Of a DNA stretch of 27,864 nt, positions 7,644 to 17,079 are shown in pieces. The translations under genes and the position numbers were made by a program. The stretch comes from a virus. The stretch spans positions 1 to 27,864 of the IMG/VR virus record IMGVR_UViG_3300043122_000129; one strand, written 5' to 3'. The notes beneath the pieces are model-generated. The model had not been told where the DNA came from. It saw only the letters and a list, made by a program, of their open reading frames with translations, and searched no databases. Position 1 is the stretch's first letter; each line of letters starts with the position of its first letter.

Positions 7644-7999
7644 TACCAACTGAACACGAAGAACAAAAGACACTATGCAAATATTTAGATTTGAAAAAGA
7701 TTAAATATCATAGTGTGCCAAATGCAAATATTCTAAGTAGTCTTAATAAACAAATGGCAGTTAGAGTTATGCAAAAATTAAAAAGAGAGGGGTTAAAAAA
7801 AGGAACTCCTGATATTGTTGTATTTCTTCCAAACAAAATACTTTATATTGAAATGAAAAGGATAAAAGCTAGTATAACATCAAAGGAACAGATTGAATGG
7901 ATAGAATTTATAAACACATTGCCTTATGCTAAAGGTAAAATTTGTAAAGGAAGTAAAGTAGCTATTGAGTTTGTAGAAAATGAACTTAGAAAGCTTTAA
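7640..7999 (+). CDS. VRR-NUC domain nuclease
   Basis: A 119-aa stand-alone VRR-NUC protein of the PD-(D/E)XK superfamily. E7 in TEHEEQKTLCKYL, then GTPDIVVF (D58) and YIEMKR (E71-x-K73), then SKEQIEWI (Q84) are the expected catalytic residues, all present. The C-terminus KICKGSKVAIEFV is also typical. Phage VRR-NUC proteins are presumed structure-specific nucleases or Holliday junction resolvases. Its start overlaps the HNH gene stop (ATGA), so the two nucleases are translationally coupled. Confidence 0.85.
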   Translation: MIPTEHEEQKTLCKYLDLKKIKYHSVPNANILSSLNKQMAVRVMQKLKREGLKKGTPDIVVFLPNKILYIEMKRIKASITSKEQIEWIEFINTLPYAKGKICKGSKVAIEFVENELRKL

Positions 8000-8087
8000 A
8001 GGTGTTCTTAGTTCGTATAGTGTTACATACTATCAAAGACTTATAAGAATTGTTAGAAAAAAGATAAAATTGCTTGACAAAAGATAA
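7980..8087 (+). CDS. Small basic protein, 35 aa
   Basis: An ORF starting inside the last codons of the VRR-NUC gene (20-base overlap) and reading MNLESFKGVLSSYSVTYYQR, then LIRIVRKKIKLLDKR. It is very basic and amphipathic. The ribosome site is weak (AGAAA), so expression would rely on coupling. The downstream promoter's -35 lies inside its end. It may be a real mini-gene or a chance frame; no family recognised. Confidence 0.35.
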   Translation: MNLESFKGVLSSYSVTYYQRLIRIVRKKIKLLDKR

Positions 8088-8103
8088 ATAATTTAGATAG
8101 TAT
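8074..8103 (+). promoter_or_regulatory. Promoter of antirepressor transcript
   Basis: A perfect TTGACA (8074-8079) followed by GATAGT at 16-nt spacing (8096-8101) or TAGTAT at 18 nt (8098-8103). Transcription would start near 8109, a few bases before the hairpin at 8123, so the RNA begins with the antisense-like structure described below. Confidence 0.5.
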
Positions 8104-8122
8104 GTTTTTAGAGTTTTTAAAT

Positions 8123-8200
8123 GAGAACTAGCCAAAGGTATCCCAAGCACCTACTACCTAGTTCTCTTTTAAGGGCTTATAAGAGTAGTGAAGCTTGGGA
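8123..8200 (+). ncRNA. C4-like antisense RNA module A and its target (antirepressor leader)
   Basis: A 9-bp perfect stem, GAGAACTAG (8123-8131) with CTAGTTCTC (8158-8166), carries an inner AGGT/ACCT stem (8136-8139/8149-8152) and two single-stranded blocks: a' TCCCAAGC (8141-8148) and b' TACTAC (8152-8157). Downstream, b GTAGTG (8185-8190, last pair G-U) and a GCTTGGGA (8193-8200) are their complements in antiparallel order, so loop and target can form a 6+8-bp interrupted duplex. The second module at 10232 has the same design with compensating changes. This matches the logic of P1/P7 c4 RNA, which is cut from the ant transcript and pairs with the leader ORF start to silence ant. The family assignment is inference; the pairing is visible. 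Confidence 0.7.
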
Positions 8201-8247
8201 ACTTCTACACTCTCCTTAAATTTAACAATCCCGAAAGATTATCATGA
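8188..8247 (+). CDS. Leader ORF overlapping the antirepressor gene
   Basis: A 19-codon frame from GTG (8188) reading MKLGNFYTLLKFNNPERLS, whose TGA overlaps the antirepressor ATG (ATGA). The antirepressor has no ribosome binding site of its own, so translation of this leader would be needed to reach it, as for icd-ant in P1. Its start lies inside the antisense target. AAGGG is 12 nt before the GTG, farther than usual; the frame extends to an ATA 9 bases upstream at the position of the ATG in module B, so the true start is uncertain. The core CTT-AAA-TTT is in the same frame as in module B. Confidence 0.4.
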   Translation: MKLGNFYTLLKFNNPERLS

Positions 8248-8906
8248 ATGATTTAATTCAAATAAATCAAACTGCGATTAATGGTGCAGATGTTAATTCT
8301 GTTAATGCTAGAGAATTATATAGTTCTCTTGAACTTGGAAAAGGTCAATATACTAGATGGATAACTCAAAATCTTATAAATAATGAGTTCTTTAATGTTG
8401 ATATTGATTATATTATGGTTCGACATAATGTCGAGGGTAATGACACAATAGATCATATAGTTTCTTTAGATGTTGCTAAACATTTATCAATGATGGCTAA
8501 AACTAAAAAGGCTCATGAATTAAGAACTTATTTTATCGATTTTGAAAAAAAAGCTAAAAATATAATCAATTCTCAATCTAATGAAATACAGTTGTTACAA
8601 CAAATGGTTAATACCATTGCTAAAACTGACGAAAGAGTAACTACTTTAGAACAAACTAAAAGACTTGAATCATGGCAAGAAAAAGCTTTACAGGATGCTA
8701 AAAATACTAAAGTTTATGAATTAGCGAAGATAATGAGAACTGGTGATGAATCAAGAGATAAAACTACTGTATCAAAACTTCATAGGCAAATATGGTCTGT
8801 TTTTAAGAAAAAATATCACCTGCCTAGATATTCAGAACTCCCAAGTATAAAATTTAATGAAGCAAAAGCATATATTGATAGTTTAACTTTTGCTGATTTG
8901 CTTTAG
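8244..8906 (+). CDS. AntA/AntB antirepressor with ORF6C domain
   Basis: A 220-aa protein with two known phage domains. Residues about 15-95 are AntA/AntB: NARELYSSLELGKGQYTRWI, then FFNVDIDYI and ISLDVAKHLSMMAKT-type helix ending AHELRTYFIDFEKKA. Residues about 140-220 are ORF6C: ESWQEKALQDAKNTKVYELA, then LHRQIWSVFKKKYHLPRYSE. Proteins of this type inactivate the prophage repressor and promote induction. No Shine-Dalgarno precedes the ATG; it overlaps the stop of a leader ORF controlled by the C4-like RNA. It has its own promoter at 8074. The repressor it would target is not in this window. Confidence 0.85.
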   Translation: MNDLIQINQTAINGADVNSVNARELYSSLELGKGQYTRWITQNLINNEFFNVDIDYIMVRHNVEGNDTIDHIVSLDVAKHLSMMAKTKKAHELRTYFIDFEKKAKNIINSQSNEIQLLQQMVNTIAKTDERVTTLEQTKRLESWQEKALQDAKNTKVYELAKIMRTGDESRDKTTVSKLHRQIWSVFKKKYHLPRYSELPSIKFNEAKAYIDSLTFADLL

Positions 8907-8914
8907 GAGTTGGG

Positions 8915-9628
8915 ATGAAAGATTTAATGAATAAGATACACAATCATGATATGAAAGATCTTATTAAAAAAGTTGATAGTAATTCAATCTCCTGTATTTT
9001 TACAGATGTTCCTTACGAAATTTCAAAAGGTGGAAGTACAAAAGTAGAAGGAGCTATGAGTTGGAATTATATTTCAGAAAAAAGAAATGGAAAAATATTT
9101 GAGCATAACAACATTAAACCAGAAGAGTATTTAGCTGACTTTTATAGAATACTAGAAGAAACTGGACATATATACTTAATGACAAACTCTATCCACCTTG
9201 CAGAAATTCAAAAACAGATGGAAAAAGTAGGATTTATTATAAATAATATTCTAGTAATGGTAAAAAACAATACTGTCACAAACCAACATTATATGAAAAA
9301 TTGTGAGTTTACTATATTTGCAAGAAAAGGGGCGAGTAAAGGATTAAATGATTTTGGTATTAATTCAGCCATATGTGTAGATATGCCAAGAGGTGAGAAC
9401 AAAATACATGACACACAAAAACCACTACAATATGTTAAAAAACTTATCGGTAACTCTACTAAAAAAGGCGATATAGTTGCTGACTTCTTTAGCGGAAGTG
9501 GAGTAGTGGCAAACGCTTGTATTGATTTGGGAGTTGATTATATTTGTTGCGAGATAGACGAAGCTTATCATAAAAGATCAACAGAAAGAATACAAAAAGC
9601 AACTGGTAACGTAGGACTATTCGCATGA
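8915..9628 (+). CDS. DNA methyltransferase (N4-cytosine/N6-adenine type)
   Basis: A 237-aa amino-methyltransferase with the beta-class order: catalytic motif IV near the N-terminus, TDVPYEI (D31-V-P-Y34), and the AdoMet-binding motif I near the C-terminus, VADFFSGSGVVANAC (D190 to G196), followed by the acidic CCEIDEAY strand. HDTQKP (165-170) stands where HPTQKP is usual. Length is normal for a solitary phage enzyme with a short target-recognition region. The catalytic tetrapeptide is DVPY rather than DPPY, and the Asp, Pro and Tyr are kept, so activity is likely. No restriction gene is adjacent, so protection of phage DNA or gene control is more probable than an R-M system. GGAG precedes the start. 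Confidence 0.85.
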   Translation: MKDLMNKIHNHDMKDLIKKVDSNSISCIFTDVPYEISKGGSTKVEGAMSWNYISEKRNGKIFEHNNIKPEEYLADFYRILEETGHIYLMTNSIHLAEIQKQMEKVGFIINNILVMVKNNTVTNQHYMKNCEFTIFARKGASKGLNDFGINSAICVDMPRGENKIHDTQKPLQYVKKLIGNSTKKGDIVADFFSGSGVVANACIDLGVDYICCEIDEAYHKRSTERIQKATGNVGLFA

Positions 9629-9831
9629 AAAGAATACACTTAGAAATAAACATAAATCAAATCGTAGGCATAATCTTAGGTTGGTTAATAGTAAGATACC
9701 TATTTCCACTTTTTAACCACCTTGACCAATCTACGGTAGCGAGTATATCAACTGTTATATTTTTCGTAAGTAGTTATGCAAGAAGTTTTTTATTAAGATT
9801 ATATTTTGAAAAAAGGAAACCCATGAAATAA
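9625..9831 (+). CDS. Small two-span membrane protein (DUF7220-like)
   Basis: A 68-aa protein with two hydrophobic segments, about residues 10-28 (NQIVGIILGWLIVRYLFPLF) and 38-54 (VASISTVIFFVSSYARSFLL), followed by a basic tail LYFEKRKPMK. The pattern, including the SYxRSFLLRxYFE ending, resembles a family of small phage inner-membrane proteins (DUF7220). Role unknown. The ATG overlaps the methyltransferase stop (ATGA), so the two are co-expressed. Confidence 0.6.
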   Translation: MKRIHLEININQIVGIILGWLIVRYLFPLFNHLDQSTVASISTVIFFVSSYARSFLLRLYFEKRKPMK

Positions 9832-9841
9832 AAAGCAAAGC

Positions 9842-9916
9842 AATATCCCTCGCATAGTTTTACTCTATGTTCGTCTACTTTGAGGGGTATTTCTAAGCTT
9901 TACATGTAAGGTTTAG
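9842..9916 (+). ncRNA. Structured leader with two hairpins
   Basis: AATATCCCTC (9842-9851) pairs with GAGGGGTATT (9882-9891) as a 10-bp stem with one G-U; inside it GCATAG (9852-9857) pairs with CTATGT (9865-9870). A second hairpin, CTAAGCTTTA-CATG-TAAGGTTTAG (9893-9916), has 10 pairs with two G-U. The 45-aa gene's ribosome site follows 11 bases later. The sequence resembles neither C4-like module and no loop-to-loop complementarity was found. It may be a mRNA leader, a weak attenuator or a small RNA. Confidence 0.4.
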
Positions 9917-9936
9917 GAATATTATAAGGAGTTAAA

Positions 9937-10074
9937 ATGCTATACAGAAATATAAATACAAATAAACTAATAGAGTTTATAGAAATTAGAGATGGTTATG
10001 TTTGGTTTAGAGTTGATGGTGTTGTAGATTGTATTGATGTTGATACTTTTGATATTATTTATGAGTTGATATAA
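9937..10074 (+). CDS. Hypothetical protein, 45 aa
   Basis: A short ORF with a strong AGGAG 6 nt before its ATG. It reads MLYRNINTNKLIEFIEIRDG, then YVWFRVDGVVDCIDVDTFDI, ending IYELI: alternating hydrophobic and polar residues that predict a small beta-sheet protein with an acidic C-terminal half. No family recognised. It is preceded by a two-hairpin leader and followed directly by a hairpin that would terminate transcription on the other strand. Confidence 0.6.
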   Translation: MLYRNINTNKLIEFIEIRDGYVWFRVDGVVDCIDVDTFDIIYELI

Positions 10075-10099
10075 AAAAGCCCCTCGCTGCAAAGGGGCT
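10073..10099 (-). terminator. Rho-independent terminator, leftward
   Basis: A 7-bp GC-rich stem, AGCCCCT (10078-10084) with AGGGGCT (10093-10099), 8-nt loop. On the minus strand it is followed by six T (10078-10073); on the plus strand there is no T tract. It would therefore stop leftward transcripts, although both flanking genes point right, perhaps shielding the antirepressor region from read-through or antisense RNA. Confidence 0.65.
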
Positions 10100-10192
10100 A
10101 AATTCTAAAGGAGTAATTTTGTGACCTTAAGTTTATCAAGGATATATAATTATATCTAATCTTAAAATAAAAAGCAACTATACCTTCAATAA

Positions 10193-10221
10193 TTGTATAT
10201 TAATTTCTTTTATGTTATACT
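10193..10221 (+). promoter_or_regulatory. Promoter of HNH/HUH transcript
   Basis: TTGTAT (10193-10198), 17-nt spacer, TATACT (10216-10221) preceded by TGT, an extended -10. Transcription would start about 10228, four bases before the 15-bp hairpin of module B, the same arrangement as for the antirepressor promoter and module A. Confidence 0.5.
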
Positions 10222-10231
10222 ATATAGATTT

Positions 10232-10313
10232 CTTAACAGAGAGTAGTATAGGACTCCTACACGCCTTGTACCTACTCTTTGTTAAGGATTCAATGAGTAC
10301 AGAAAGTGTAGGA
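10232..10313 (+). ncRNA. C4-like antisense RNA module B and its target (HNH/HUH leader)
   Basis: A 15-bp stem (10232-10246 with 10272-10286, one G-U) encloses an AGG/CCT inner stem (10250-10252/10264-10266) and two blocks, a' TCCTACAC (10255-10262) and b' TTGTAC (10266-10271). Downstream b GTACAG (10297-10302, last pair G-U) and a GTGTAGGA (10306-10313) are their complements. Relative to module A, three of eight pairs in a/a' and two of six in b/b' are changed, and each change is matched on the partner strand. Because the octamers differ, each loop should recognise only its own target. The target begins 2 nt after the ATG of a leader ORF, so pairing should block its translation. Confidence 0.7.
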
Positions 10314-10370
10314 ACTTCTAGTAACTCCCTTAAATTTATTAGCCTGATTGCGTATTATGAAAACATTTAA
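10293..10370 (+). CDS. Leader ORF overlapping the HNH/NUMOD gene
   Basis: A 25-codon frame from ATG (10293) with AAGGA four bases upstream. It reads MSTESVGTSSNSLKFISLIA, then YYENI, and overlaps the start of the HNH gene (ATG 10357) by 14 bases. The HNH gene has no ribosome binding site of its own, so expression probably depends on this leader. Part of the ribosome site (10284-10286) is in the 3' arm of the module B hairpin and codons 2-7 are the antisense target. The CTT-AAA-TTT core is in the same frame as in module A's leader ORF. Confidence 0.5.
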   Translation: MSTESVGTSSNSLKFISLIAYYENI

Positions 10371-10992
10371 AAAATGTTCTTGTTGCCATAAACAAAAACA
10401 TACATCTATGTTTAGATATAGAAAAGTTGCTAAAGATAAGCTAATGAGTCTTTGTGTTGAGTGTGAAAGATTAAAATGCAAAGAGTATGAAAGAACTAAA
10501 GTTGGTGTAATTAGCACTATATATCGCTCACAAAAAGCTAGTTCAAAAAAAAGGAAAATGCCACCTCCGTCATATTCTTATTTGTTTCTCAAAGATTTTC
10601 TTATTGATGATTTATTATTCAATTTTCTTTATAATAATTGGGTAAATAGTGGGTATGAAACACTTTTAAAGCCATCTATTGATAGGCTTGATGATTTATT
10701 GCCTTATACTCTAAATAATATTAGATTAACTACATGGGGAATTAATAAGAAAAAATACAATACTGATAGAACACAAGGAATTGATAAACAGCAAAATAAG
10801 GCAGTTGTTCAATTTGATACTTACGGAAACAAAATAAATGAGTTTTTTTCTGCATCTGAAGCAAACCGTAAAACTGGTATTTCTCGTCCTGATATTTCCG
10901 TGTGTTGCACTAAATTTGTTAGAAAGTCTGGTTATTATTGGAGGTTTAAGTCAGAAGTAAAACAATCTACAAAGATTTCTATTGAGTCATAA
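10357..10992 (+). CDS. HNH-like homing endonuclease with NUMOD/IENR-type repeat
   Basis: A 211-aa protein in three parts. Residues 1-45 form a zinc ribbon, CSCC and LCVEC. Residues about 85-135 carry PSIDRLDDLLPYTLNNIRLT-TW-N, the SIDRxD...YTLxNI pattern of small phage HNH-type endonucleases. Residues about 148-200 (AVVQFDTYGNKINEFFSASE, then ANRKTGISRPDIS, ending GYYWRFK) are a NUMOD1/IENR1-like DNA-binding module that often tails homing endonucleases. I chose ATG 10357 over a TTG nine bases upstream. No Shine-Dalgarno is present; expression seems coupled to the leader ORF. It may be a free-standing mobile gene. The HUH gene starts inside its last codons. Confidence 0.7.
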   Translation: MKTFKKCSCCHKQKHTSMFRYRKVAKDKLMSLCVECERLKCKEYERTKVGVISTIYRSQKASSKKRKMPPPSYSYLFLKDFLIDDLLFNFLYNNWVNSGYETLLKPSIDRLDDLLPYTLNNIRLTTWGINKKKYNTDRTQGIDKQQNKAVVQFDTYGNKINEFFSASEANRKTGISRPDISVCCTKFVRKSGYYWRFKSEVKQSTKISIES

Positions 10993-11764
10993 AATACATT
11001 ATTCTAGGCTAGATAATATAAAAAGGTCTAATGCAAGGAAACGGCACGATTATTGGTCACTATACGACAAGTATAAAGATAGAGATAAACTAATGATTAC
11101 ATTTACTCATCTTGAAACTGATCCTTATAAAAAAATGGAGATAATGATTAAGATAAAAAATTATATATCTAGCCTTATCAGAAACACAAGAACTGATAAT
11201 ATTGCATTTTTTAGTAATATTGAACTTGGAAAAGATTATTTATCTCCTCACATACATTGTCAATTTTTTTATACTGACTATAATCAACTAATAAAAATTA
11301 GAGATAAAGTATTTTATAAATTTGGTTTATTCTCTGAATTTTCGCATACTACTATTCCTACATGTAAAGATGTAGTTTATAATTACTGCATTAAAGACTA
11401 TTCTAAAAGTAAAACAGATATAGAGTTGTTGTATTTAGATGAGTTTAAAAGGATGTATAGAGCTAAATTAGGCAAGAACATAAGGTTTATGTCTATGAGT
11501 AAAGATAAGTATACTAAAGCTATTTATCGTAAGGCGTATAGTAAAGGAATTAAGAGGGAGAATGTAGATTTTTTAATAACAAATTGTATAATTAATGAAT
11601 ATATAGAATTAGTTGATTGTAGACTTTGTTGTTATTTAATACACATTTTAGGCATATATATAGAACAAGAAAAAACTAAAGTTTTGTTTTGTTTTTTGAT
11701 AGAAAGTGATAGCCAATTCCATTTCAAAAAACTATTTGATTTATGGGTTACTGGCTATCTTTAG
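10982..11764 (+). CDS. HUH-type Rep-like endonuclease
   Basis: A 260-aa frame whose only early start is TTG (10982), 11 bases inside the previous gene. It carries the three rolling-circle Rep motifs in order: motif I LMITFTH (37-43), motif II SPHIHCQ (H90-I-H92, metal-binding HUH) preceded by an IELGKDY strand, and motif III YCIK (Y135-x-x-K138) with catalytic Tyr. A single Tyr suggests a Rep or transposase-like nickase. The C-terminal third is Cys/Leu/Ile-rich (LCCYLIHILGIYIEQEKTKV) and does not resemble a helicase. It could start phage replication, or mobilise an element with the coupled HNH gene. Specific family not assigned. Confidence 0.6.
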   Translation: MSHKIHYSRLDNIKRSNARKRHDYWSLYDKYKDRDKLMITFTHLETDPYKKMEIMIKIKNYISSLIRNTRTDNIAFFSNIELGKDYLSPHIHCQFFYTDYNQLIKIRDKVFYKFGLFSEFSHTTIPTCKDVVYNYCIKDYSKSKTDIELLYLDEFKRMYRAKLGKNIRFMSMSKDKYTKAIYRKAYSKGIKRENVDFLITNCIINEYIELVDCRLCCYLIHILGIYIEQEKTKVLFCFLIESDSQFHFKKLFDLWVTGYL

Positions 11765-13692: not shown

Positions 13693-14091
13693 CTAATATC
13701 CTATTTCTGCTTTAAGTCCATATCCTATTGCTAAGCACTCAGTTACATAAGTTTCATACGCTATTCTTTTTCCATCGCTTTCATCTCTTTTGCTCATAGC
13801 TATTTCATCTGCAAGGCTATATTTTTTTGCTATTTCCTTTGCAACTACTTCTCTAATTCTGTTTAGTTGTGTTGAGTCTGTGACGAGTGACTTAAACTCT
13901 TCTTGTGCTATTTCTTCGCATAAGATTCTTGCATCTTGACTAGCGATAACTTCATCTATAGCAACTTCTTCTCCTGCTAAACTAACAACACTCACATTGA
14001 AGTGATTGACTTTTACATCTTCGCTCCCACCTCTAAATTCTAAAACCGTATCCTCTGTGCTGACTTTTTCAAACTTTATGTATTTAAACAT
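13693..14091 (-). CDS. Hypothetical protein, 132 aa, between DGR and lysis genes
   Basis: Begins MFKYIKFEKVSTEDTVLEFR, a beta-rich N-terminal half, with a helical C-terminal half (REVVAKEIAKKYSLADEIAM, then YETYVTECLAIGYG). No known motif. AGGAG precedes the ATG by 6 nt, and the gene starts inside the last 16 bases of the reverse-transcriptase ORF, so it is translated from the same message. It could be a tail or chaperone gene next to the fibre block, or a lysis-module gene. I do not recognise it. Confidence 0.65.
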   Translation of the reverse strand: MFKYIKFEKVSTEDTVLEFRGGSEDVKVNHFNVSVVSLAGEEVAIDEVIASQDARILCEEIAQEEFKSLVTDSTQLNRIREVVAKEIAKKYSLADEIAMSKRDESDGKRIAYETYVTECLAIGYGLKAEIGY

Positions 14092-15341
14092 GTTTGACTC
14101 CTTTTTGGTAATTTTTTTAAAATTTTATTCACGTTCAATAATCTTTTATAGTATTTAATCGTGCCAGTATTCTTAGCATGACCTATTAAAGAAATTATTG
14201 AATGAACTTTTGACTTTTTTATGGCTTTTTTCATTTTGTAAATACTATGTTTTCTCACAAATTTTATACTCTTCCATGTTCGGTAGCCTACAAAATTTAT
14301 ACCTCTTTTTATTTTTTGTATATGCCAATGACTCAATTCAATATTTAAGTTATCTTGTACGAATTTTTCACATTTTTCTTTTGCATTTTTTGCTTCGTCT
14401 AAAGTTAATCCAATCAATATAAAATCATCCACATATCTCACATAACTTTTTGATTTCAATTCTCTTTTTATAAAGTGATCTAGCGGATTAAGATAAATTA
14501 GTGCATAAATTTGAGATAGTAAGTTCCCAATAGGAATTCCTTTATCTTCATTCATTTCTGCAAATTCGCACATGATGTCTAAAAATCTTTTATCTTTAAT
14601 CTTTTTCTCAAATAGTTTTCTCAAAATTGTTCTATCAATTGAATAAAAAAACTTTCGTATATCGAGCTTTACAAAATACAAGTCACCACTATATTTTCTC
14701 ATCTCATTTTGCGTATAAACACTAGCTTTATGAGTGCCTCCACCTTTTCTACAAGCATATGATGTATCAATAAACGTATTGTCAAATATCGCATAAATAG
14801 TTCTATAGATAGCGTGTTGTACCACCAAATCTCTAAAAGATGGTGCATTTATTAGCCTTTTTTTAGGCTCATATACATAAAATTGAGAATAAGGTCTTGG
14901 TCTATATGTTTCACTATGCAATTCATCATAAAGAGATTGAATTTCTGCTCCTAGATTTATCTCAAATTTCAAAGTAGCTCTTTTTGTTCTTTTCCCTTTT
15001 CTTGCATCCAAAAATGCTTCGTAAAGATTTTCTAAAGTAAAAGCTTTTTCAAATAAAAAGCCTATTCTTTTGGTTGATTTAATCTGATTTTCAACATTTA
15101 AGTTACTCAAAAGATTTTTATCATTTTTGATTTCGGTTATACCAGGACAATATACCCCTCTGTTCCCAATCTCACCATTTGATGTTTTAGGCTTGGATAC
15201 ACAGTCACGACCACCCGTATTGTTATTCGAGTTAGTACGATTATTGTTCAAATTCATATTGAAGACACCAGCATTAGAAGTATTACTCCAATTGCCTCCA
15301 CATTGACAAGCTTTCATATTGCTATATTGCCCTTTGTTCAT
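14076..15341 (-). CDS. DGR reverse transcriptase with template repeat in its 5' end
   Basis: A 421-codon frame. Residues about 90-415 are the reverse transcriptase: KRIGFLFEKAFTLENLYEAF start, LDIRKFFYSID (motif A, D227), GIPIGNLLSQ (268-277, the DGR-type motif with SQ rather than the group II intron sequence), YVDD (303-306, catalytic) and RGINFVGYR. It has no maturase or endonuclease domain, as usual for DGR enzymes. It copies the TR RNA with errors at adenines. Residues 1-89 precede the enzyme and are encoded by the template repeat and the spacer after it. No ATG occurs between residue 9 and the RT domain, so TR is either translated as an N-terminal extension or a non-ATG start (TTG near codon 78) is used. 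The start shares one base with the avd stop. Confidence 0.95.
   Translation of the reverse strand: MNKGQYSNMKACQCGGNWSNTSNAGVFNMNLNNNRTNSNNNTGGRDCVSKPKTSNGEIGNRGVYCPGITEIKNDKNLLSNLNVENQIKSTKRIGFLFEKAFTLENLYEAFLDARKGKRTKRATLKFEINLGAEIQSLYDELHSETYRPRPYSQFYVYEPKKRLINAPSFRDLVVQHAIYRTIYAIFDNTFIDTSYACRKGGGTHKASVYTQNEMRKYSGDLYFVKLDIRKFFYSIDRTILRKLFEKKIKDKRFLDIMCEFAEMNEDKGIPIGNLLSQIYALIYLNPLDHFIKRELKSKSYVRYVDDFILIGLTLDEAKNAKEKCEKFVQDNLNIELSHWHIQKIKRGINFVGYRTWKSIKFVRKHSIYKMKKAIKKSKVHSIISLIGHAKNTGTIKYYKRLLNVNKILKKLPKRSQTCLNT
15206..15311 (-). repeat. DGR template repeat (TR)
   Basis: A 106-bp copy of the variable repeat at 15777-15882 (constant offset 571). In the coding orientation it has 32 adenines; 11 of these differ in VR and none of the 74 other bases does. 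Variable codons are mostly AAT or AAC, the arrangement that gives the widest amino-acid range from adenine changes without stops. The last 15 bases (15206-15220, coding 3' end) are identical in both copies and GC-richer, as expected of an IMH-like initiation site. The next TR base (15205) is also an adenine changed to C in VR. Confidence 0.95.
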
Positions 15342-15759: not shown

Positions 15760-17079
15760 TCACACAAGGTACGAGGCACGACCACCCGTATAGTAACTCG
15801 AGTTAGGACGATAATTGTTCAAAAGCATATCGAAGACACCAGCATAAGAAGTATTACCCCAATTGCCTCCACATAGACAAGCCATTTCGTTTTTTAAATA
15901 TCTATAGATACCATCATTACCAAACTCTGTAGTTCCTGCTGTGCTTACTCCTGCTGCATTTGGAATTCCTAGTGCTGTACGCTTATAAGATGCTGACGTC
16001 CTATCTGTACTCATAGCAAATACTGAATTAACCCCATTTCCTAAATAAGTCCATCCATCATTTGCATTTACTAAGTCACTAATATCAATCACATCATAGT
16101 TTGATGTAGTATAAGCGTCTGTATCGTCATCTATTGTTCTTATATCAACACTTTCTTTTAATGTTAAAAAACCTTCTGTATCCATGCGGATAAAGCCACT
16201 CGCAACTTCATACATGTTCCCATTTAGGTCTGCAATTCCACAATCTTGACCATTGTGTGTTGTTTTCGCAAAAGGCTCACCACTTCCAGTTAAAGCACAG
16301 TTTGAGTATCCACTTGGAGTAAATATAACACTAGAATCATTTACGTCTGAGAGAGCATTATTTAAATTTCCTTTTGGCATTAGTGGTGCAACGTCACTAT
16401 AAGCACATGCAACTGTAGAAGATGCAGCCTTTCCATGTGCAAAAGCAATTCTTGCTAACATAGAATAGTTATAAATAGATGTCAAAAAGTAGTCACTTCC
16501 TGCTGTTTTAACTGCTGCGTATAATCCTCCATACGTGTCTACTTGTGTTCCAGTCAATCCACTTAAAGGATTATGGTCTAAATGTGTTGAAAGTGGGTCA
16601 AGTCCTTTTTTACTTGCAAATATATTATTTACATTTGATGCACCGTATTTATAAACAAATACACCATTTATTTCTTCACCAGCATTGATAAAGCTTCTAT
16701 CTATTACATATCCTGATAATGCAGTATGTGAGATGTAACAGTTATTTCCGCTGTACATGTAATAATGTTTTGGAATATAAACTAAGGTGCTTCCATTTGC
16801 ATCTAAATAATTTCCATAGTTTGGACTTATGATATTATCATGACCCTCAAGTCCTCTCCATCCAACAGGTATTAAATCATCTGGACAAGTTGCAACTCCA
16901 AAGCCTAACTCTCCAGCGATACCTATTTGATAAATATCTTCTTCTAAATCTGTTCCATCATTTAGATTTTTCACCGCACTTGCTGCTAATGCTAAAATCT
17001 CTACTCCAGCTACCGTTGTTGGGTCTGCACCCTCAACCGCAACTCCTAATTTTTCAAATGTTGTACTTTTTAAACTCAC
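15760..17079 (-). CDS. DGR-diversified tail protein with C-type-lectin/FGE-like fold
   Basis: A 439-aa target protein. The N-terminal ~70 residues are an Ala/Gly-rich attachment region; residues about 80-435 have features of a formylglycine-generating-enzyme/C-type lectin fold, including GIADLNGNMYEVASG (281-295) and the C-terminal CGGNWGNTS...NNYRP...TGGR of DGR receptor-binding proteins. VR covers residues 400-435; residues 402, 408, 412, 417, 419, 423, 425, 428, 429 and 430 differ from the TR translation, and most are Tyr, Leu, Ser or Asp replacing Asn, making a binding surface. It begins with GTG, supported by AGGAG 6 nt upstream. It likely binds the host receptor and acts with the fibre and J-like protein encoded upstream. 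Confidence 0.92.
   Translation of the reverse strand: MSLKSTTFEKLGVAVEGADPTTVAGVEILALAASAVKNLNDGTDLEEDIYQIGIAGELGFGVATCPDDLIPVGWRGLEGHDNIISPNYGNYLDANGSTLVYIPKHYYMYSGNNCYISHTALSGYVIDRSFINAGEEINGVFVYKYGASNVNNIFASKKGLDPLSTHLDHNPLSGLTGTQVDTYGGLYAAVKTAGSDYFLTSIYNYSMLARIAFAHGKAASSTVACAYSDVAPLMPKGNLNNALSDVNDSSVIFTPSGYSNCALTGSGEPFAKTTHNGQDCGIADLNGNMYEVASGFIRMDTEGFLTLKESVDIRTIDDDTDAYTTSNYDVIDISDLVNANDGWTYLGNGVNSVFAMSTDRTSASYKRTALGIPNAAGVSTAGTTEFGNDGIYRYLKNEMACLCGGNWGNTSYAGVFDMLLNNYRPNSSYYTGGRASYLV
15777..15882 (-). repeat. DGR variable repeat (VR)
   Basis: The recipient copy at the 3' end of the target gene. It differs from TR at 15792, 15795, 15797, 15807, 15813, 15824, 15825, 15831, 15846, 15858 and 15875; in coding orientation these are A to T (6), A to G (3) and A to C (2). 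Downstream of VR only 12 bases of coding sequence and the stop remain, so the whole C-terminal binding site is replaced at each retrohoming event. Confidence 0.95.

Follow-up and report, generated by a model that had tools for sequence, protein, structure and literature searches.

In CopA/CopT-type pairs, two hairpins with complementary apical loops control a plasmid replication gene. C4-type RNAs are known mainly from proteobacterial phages and from positions in front of icd-ant. RNase P processes the C4 RNA, whose loops determine P1/P7 specificity (PMC5320573). The P4 CI RNA is a leader antisense RNA that holds the replication operon off in the lysogen, and the IsrK locus of Gifsy-1 combines an sRNA, a leader ORF with an overlapping AUGA and an antirepressor, with IsrK activating translation in trans (PMC4825925). 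Here, a viral DNA of 27,864 nucleotides (the window, to which all coordinates refer unless another locus is named) was analyzed. Two elements on its plus strand, module A (8111-8219) and module B (10229-10333), share a common design: a long hairpin I carries an 8-nt loop block, a, and a 6-nt junction block, b, which are complementary to blocks a' and b' downstream. The presence of this paired-block RNA design in both modules is confirmed. Module B is probably a cis-encoded antisense RNA together with its own target, and belongs with module A to one new C4-like family.

Layout of modules A and B

The antisense part of module B, hairpin I (10229-10289, +; outer strands 10229-10236 and 10282-10289), folds with a predicted minimum free energy of -26.9 kcal/mol (z of -5.9 relative to shuffles) and is also marked by covariation. 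A -10-like hexamer, TATACT (10216-10221, +), lies about 8 nt upstream. Within hairpin I, an AGG/CCT inner stem and its loop (10250-10266, +; strands 10250-10252 and 10264-10266) present block a, TCCTACAC (10255-10262, +), which covaries and whose sole complement in the window is found at 10306. Junction block b, TTGTAC (10266-10271, +), pairs with block b', GTACAG (10297-10302, +), through a terminal U-G. Block a', GTGTAGGA (10306-10313, +), is identified by its unique complementarity, by covariation and by its loop position in the fold: it occupies the apical loop of hairpin II, the target hairpin (10282-10333, +), which is closed by strands c (10282-10287) and c' (10327-10333). A leader ORF of 25 codons (10293-10370, +) runs from an ATG at 10293 to a TAA at 10370 and overlaps the start of the HNH gene, an ATG at 10357 with no Shine-Dalgarno sequence in front. 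The original prediction of a second copy of one RNA design at this position is thereby borne out, with all of its described parts located in the sequence.

Module A is built in the same way. Its hairpin I (8111-8178, +; -23.8 kcal/mol, z of -3.9) carries block a, TCCCAAGC (8141-8148), and block b, TACTAC (8152-8157), and its hairpin II (8169-8219, +) carries b', GTAGTG (8185-8190), a', GCTTGGGA (8193-8200), and c' (8213-8219). The leader ORF begins with GTG (8188-8247, +), and its stop overlaps the ATG of ant as ATGA. Upstream lies a -10-like element (8096-8103, +; GATAGT or TAGTAT) downstream of a TTGACA at 8074, promoter-like matches being about as numerous in shuffled sequence. With the covariance model R1, module A, itself in the training set, scores 69 bits.

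In agreement with the original prediction, three of eight a pairs and two of six b pairs differ between the two modules, all five differences are compensated, and the terminal U-G of the short block is retained in both. Each 8-mer block and its complement occur only once in the window. Such covariation had been described as hard to get by chance. As for the pairing itself, a (8) and b (6) in the given order were recovered in 4 of 20,000 shuffles for module A and 8 of 20,000 for module B, with only the downstream part shuffled and the hairpin itself left out of the requirement. The proposed orthogonality is likewise reflected in the predicted energies. The A loop gives -7.4 on the B target versus -15.9 on its own, the B loop gives -6.7 on the A target versus -13.4 on its own, and the means are -16.6 for cognate and -6.3 for non-cognate combinations.

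Relatives in other phages and covariation

Ten further copies, each distinct in sequence, were found in other viral contigs with a covariance model, a two-part DNA pattern and a hairpin/loop-complement detector, for a total of 12 modules with A and B. The copies are located at L017, L018, L022, L023, L024, L026, L047, L048 (two), L052, L062 and L125, the last being a second copy in the record of L047. Left out of the counts were L001, L008, L016 and L021, which are the window phage again (100% identical), and L025, which is the L017 contig again. The two-block sub-type has the inner AGG/CCT hairpin (A, B, L017, L022, L023, L024/L026, the first L048 module and L125), AGG and CCT being invariant among six two-block modules. 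The one-block sub-type (L018, L047, the second L048 module, L052 and L062) has a single loop antisense of 9-14 nt and lacks this inner hairpin. In the one-block modules of L047, L048 and L052, the antisense loops begin with a UUUCGUC-like sequence and the targets end with GACA, a motif that may aid kissing. Three phages (the window phage, G070 and G071) carry two modules each, with differing loops.

The modules of L125 and L048 show no difference between the start of hairpin I and a point just beyond c', with only 75% DNA identity in the gene behind and different DNA upstream, which marks the ends of the element. The more than 100 identical bases (L125 1480-1600, L048 60-180) point to either a recent exchange or a very strong constraint. 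Despite the different surrounding DNA, a -10-like element is present in both at the position seen in module B (TATACT in L048, TATAAT in L125). The distance from this box to the hairpin I stem is 7-8 nt, which suggests that 5' processing may be unnecessary.

Covariance analysis over homologues had been named as a check of the design. In a block alignment of the 12 modules that was made by hand and carries a selection bias, several rows having been picked by a complement of at least 8 or by a pattern fixing part of a and b, 23 of the 28 pairs of hairpin I, a/a' and b/b' have changed on both sides. Double-changed cells number 81, relative to 20.6 in shuffled and 7-10 in slid controls, and 96% of cells are paired (37-47% in slid controls); these measures were reached by none of 500 shuffles. 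For a/a' alone, seven of eight pairs have changed on both sides, with 27 double-changed cells versus 5.9 by shuffle. Two checks are free of complement selection: the first L048 module, found with a model that lacks a/a' and b/b' pairing, has 7/8 a/a' and 5/5 b/b' pairs, and the unconstrained columns 23-25 and 34 of the pattern-found L022, L023 and L024 covary too. The first L048 loop is predicted to bind an unrelated target, that of L062, at -12.8 versus -9.3 for its own 7-bp target. The L017 loop reaches a predicted -16.8 kcal/mol on the window A target (8185-8205), as strong as on its own target, and a shared immunity group is possible.

Several other searches returned no additional modules. 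In viral contigs, a core-based DNA pattern recovered the window's own twin, L001/L008, which is 100% identical from position 9135 of the window, and otherwise nothing more than chance matches without hairpins. HNH and HUH protein searches yielded no independent homologue carrying a module, genome-contig scans with Ant and methylase yielded no module, and an R1 scan of 60 genomes of one phylum, a set from which the positive control is absent, was empty. When the DNA upstream of 80 Ant genes was scanned stem-first, no clear homologue had the scaffold while lacking a/a', most stems there being probably unrelated. A second, weak R1 match in G004 was rejected for lying inside coding sequence, and a loose a+b detector, which found many matches, was uninformative.

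The target hairpin and comparison with known antisense RNAs

In 12 of 12 modules, the target region folds into hairpin II: c pairs with c', and a' lies in the apical loop with between 5 and 8 of its 8 bases unpaired, a different upper part being predicted for L047. Because a' is placed in an apical loop, its contact with the loop of hairpin I would be a loop-loop interaction. Hairpin II extends from the 3' strand of hairpin I through CCCTTAAA, which ends a conserved core behind the target (ACTTC ... CCCTTAAA) that coding does not explain. The original prediction took the shared CTTAAATTTA core for leader coding sequence, and this core is better read as the 3' strand of the second hairpin. Also overlooked were the hairpin nature of the target, the pairing between the core and the 3' strand of hairpin I, and the C4-like character of the copies. 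Since the 3' strand of hairpin I pairs with CCCTTAAA too, the outer part of hairpin I and the base of hairpin II are mutually exclusive. A further partner of the c strand is the 5' base of hairpin I, to which U-G pairs often join it, and stem columns 3 and 4 of hairpin I are U-G in 7/12 and 11/12 modules, respectively. The c/c' helix changes from GGG/CCC to GAG/CTC (L018, L048) or GTG/CAC (L017, L023). Three of its seven pairs covary, a count reached by 42 of 500 shuffles and thus weaker support than that for a/a', and individual target hairpins are just slightly more stable than shuffled sequence (mean z of -1.6). In phage P1 (L015 411-475), CUGCC at the C4 3' end can also close a hairpin that spans the a2 site, possibly in the same shared-strand arrangement.

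The closest match in layout is the P1/P7 C4 RNA (RF01695), as taken from the L015 (phage P1) annotation and the Rfam alignment. Both C4 and the modules have a closing stem and complementarity to two target sites, of the hairpin loop to the downstream one and of the 3' junction to the upstream one, in the same order. Both encode the antisense on the strand of its target and just upstream of it (in C4, the targets a2/b2 before icd-ant). Both also occur in an antirepressor context (module A precedes the AntA antirepressor), and the loops of the modules would set specificity, as reported for P1/P7. In all two-block modules, a/a' and b/b' lie downstream on the same strand with the junction site first and covary. 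In contrast, C4 has three helices, P1, P2 (the UUCG hairpin) and P3, whereas the modules have P1 and a P3-like AGG/CCT hairpin, with P2 absent in all. C4 is cut by RNase P, whereas a -10 box lies just before the stem of the modules. The modules further differ in having an extended target hairpin with a' in its loop, in lacking an icd gene and in being found before replication genes as well. With membership set at 45 bits or more against the Rfam C4 covariance model, the window gave no match at the gathering threshold, its part 7900-10600 gave none even with E relaxed to 10, and ten related loci gave none either; P1 itself scores 68.8 bits. Judged from their sequences, the modules are a C4-like variant, since their topology equals that of P1 C4, and are not members of Rfam C4, since there is no Rfam match and helix P2 is absent.

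Other systems share fewer features. The P4 CI RNA is an antisense RNA as well, encoded in the leader of the replication operon it silences in the lysogen; modules lie before replication-initiator genes in L017 and L023, which they may control, and module B would be a comparable case if the HUH protein is a Rep. However, it pairs with two sites, one upstream (seqA) and one downstream (seqC), whereas a' of module B occurs once in the window, downstream only. The IsrK-orf45-anrP region resembles the modules in its leader RNA, its leader ORF with overlapping AUGA, its antirepressor and its two exclusive leader folds, but IsrK is an activator with an intrinsic terminator after it, another fold and a needed leader ORF, which is not conserved in the modules. 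CopA/CopT also has two hairpins with complementary apical loops and regulates a replication gene, as is proposed for some modules, but CopA comes from the strand opposite its target, whereas antisense and target of the modules are separate stretches of one strand.

Downstream genes and proposed mode of action

Module A is followed by an AntA/ORF6C antirepressor (8244-8906, +; Pfam PF08346, PF10552). AntA-type antirepressors are also found behind L022, L047, the second L048 module, L052 and L062, those of L047 and L052 being assigned by similarity to the Ant query, and L018 is followed by Rha+ORF6C. The nearest annotated antirepressors, from Nitratiruptor phages, show 33% identity, and no such module was seen at the Nitratiruptor gene. 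Behind module B, the predicted homing-type endonuclease is supported as an HNH-type protein with a NUMOD1 domain (10357-10992, +; Pfam PF07453, PHROG 1035 and 20162). The assignment of the second gene as HUH Rep-like (10982-11764, +; start overlapping the HNH stop) is weak and putative: it draws on a sub-threshold match to PF23343 (REP_ORF2-G2P, E 0.003), an HxH motif (HIH) and a low-confidence single-sequence AlphaFold model (pLDDT 41) with a strand/helix order that fits HUH and a quality too poor for a fold search.

The reuse of the design before genes other than antirepressors recurs in the genes behind L017, L023 and L048/L125. Replication initiators follow L017 (phrog_4707/428) and L023 (phrog_270), with 17% mutual identity, and a 147 aa gene of unknown kind and a DUF6291 gene follow a module in L048, with a similar pair in L125. 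If L017, L023 and L048 are taken as a guide, the HUH gene behind module B is likely the regulated replication gene and the HNH gene a mobile passenger. L024 and L026 are nearly identical to L022 except that a gene of about 190 aa stands between module and ant, which indicates that the slot behind the module takes new genes. The protein, read from L026, has no match in Pfam, PHROG or NCBIfam. Alignment of L022 10092-10123 with L024 981-1572 (module orientation) places the insertion of about 560 bases exactly between RNA module and ant.

Two further parts of the original prediction hold at the window and not across the family. The leader ORF overlaps the downstream gene in A and B but is not conserved: it is absent or non-overlapping in L125, L047 and the second L048 module, and in L125, despite a module identical to that of L048, the leader stops about 26 nt upstream of the gene. 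From these sequences, it is unlikely to be a general family feature. Similarly, the downstream gene lacks a ribosome site at B, but in most relatives the start is preceded by GAAAG or GGAAAG. Masking of a GAAAG ribosome site by CUUC freed upon antisense binding is predicted in 5 of 13 modules and in neither window A nor window B, so an anti-Shine-Dalgarno model is not proposed. In neither A nor B was an intrinsic terminator found on the plus strand in the interval from hairpin I to the gene, nor any terminator or processing site that would release hairpin I.

We infer both action in trans and its sign, repression or activation, and favor repression in trans via loop-loop pairing. A promoter directly upstream would start the RNA at the base of hairpin I. 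Comparison of the relatives shows that hairpin I presents a in its loop and b in its 3' junction, that hairpin II exposes a' in its apical loop and has b' in its stem, that loop and target coevolve, and that the 3' strand of hairpin I serves as the 5' strand of hairpin II. A released or abortive hairpin I RNA would act in trans: it would kiss hairpin II of the nascent mRNA via a/a', spread into b/b' and lower expression of the operon behind module B, the HNH and Rep-like HUH genes. Precedents would be the C4 RNA on icd-ant and the P4 CI RNA on its own replication operon. In a lysogen, module B would keep the replication operon silent, also in a superinfecting phage with the same loop, and module A would do likewise for the antirepressor, the different loops separating the two circuits. 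Tentatively, the modules could be undescribed, exchangeable kissing-RNA immunity elements of phages, with up to two orthogonal copies per phage gating antirepressor and replication operon, immunity groups defined by the loops and an exclusive-hairpin switch between antisense and target forms. They represent a divergent, unannotated C4-type variant with defined loop-loop geometry that recurs in phages from several metagenomes and precedes antirepressor and replication operons, in some phages within one genome. They would also offer orthogonal RNA pairs that are short and modular, and make RNA-based superinfection immunity of uncultured phages directly testable from sequence.

An attenuator-like leader that acts only in cis, with intramolecular a/a' kissing and exclusive helices sensing something else and no RNA acting in trans, is the strongest alternative and is considered unlikely. 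In its favor, hairpins I and II stand on one transcript, have a strand in common, are mutually exclusive and are not separated by any terminator; however, loops that diversify on a kept scaffold, and two loops per phage, are expected for trans specificity or immunity groups, and the similarly laid out P1 C4, P4 CI RNA and IsrK act in trans (PMC5320573, PMC4825925). An activator like Gifsy-1 IsrK, in which a short RNA opens an inhibitory leader structure and turns the gene on, is more doubtful still. The IsrK locus is arranged in the same order, its leader adopts two exclusive folds, and IsrK activates translation in trans (PMC4825925); moreover, the window A leader stop overlaps the ant start as ATGA, but IsrK ends at an intrinsic terminator, none of which is seen in modules A or B, the leader ORF is not conserved among modules, and the topology is that of C4, not of IsrK.

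DNA hairpins are nicked by HUH enzymes, one of which may be encoded behind module B. That module B is instead a DNA hairpin, such as an origin nicked by this putative HUH protein, is nevertheless very improbable: the same design precedes antirepressors and other genes, the stem pairs are often U-G on the module strand and would be A-C on the opposite strand, and a loop complement in a second hairpin is no feature of an origin. AT-rich DNA yields many weak matches, as the loose detector found, but chance complementarity or functionless duplicated DNA is negligibly probable given a+b alone in 4-8 of 20,000 shuffles, covariation across independent phages and an identical module next to diverged flanks (L125/L048). 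Elsewhere in the window, a diversity-generating retroelement is present, with a reverse transcriptase, a 109-base template repeat and a variable repeat (14076-15341, -; 15203-15311; 15774-15882). The variable repeat lies at the end of a gene (15760-17079), and 12 of the 12 differences between the repeats fall at template adenines.
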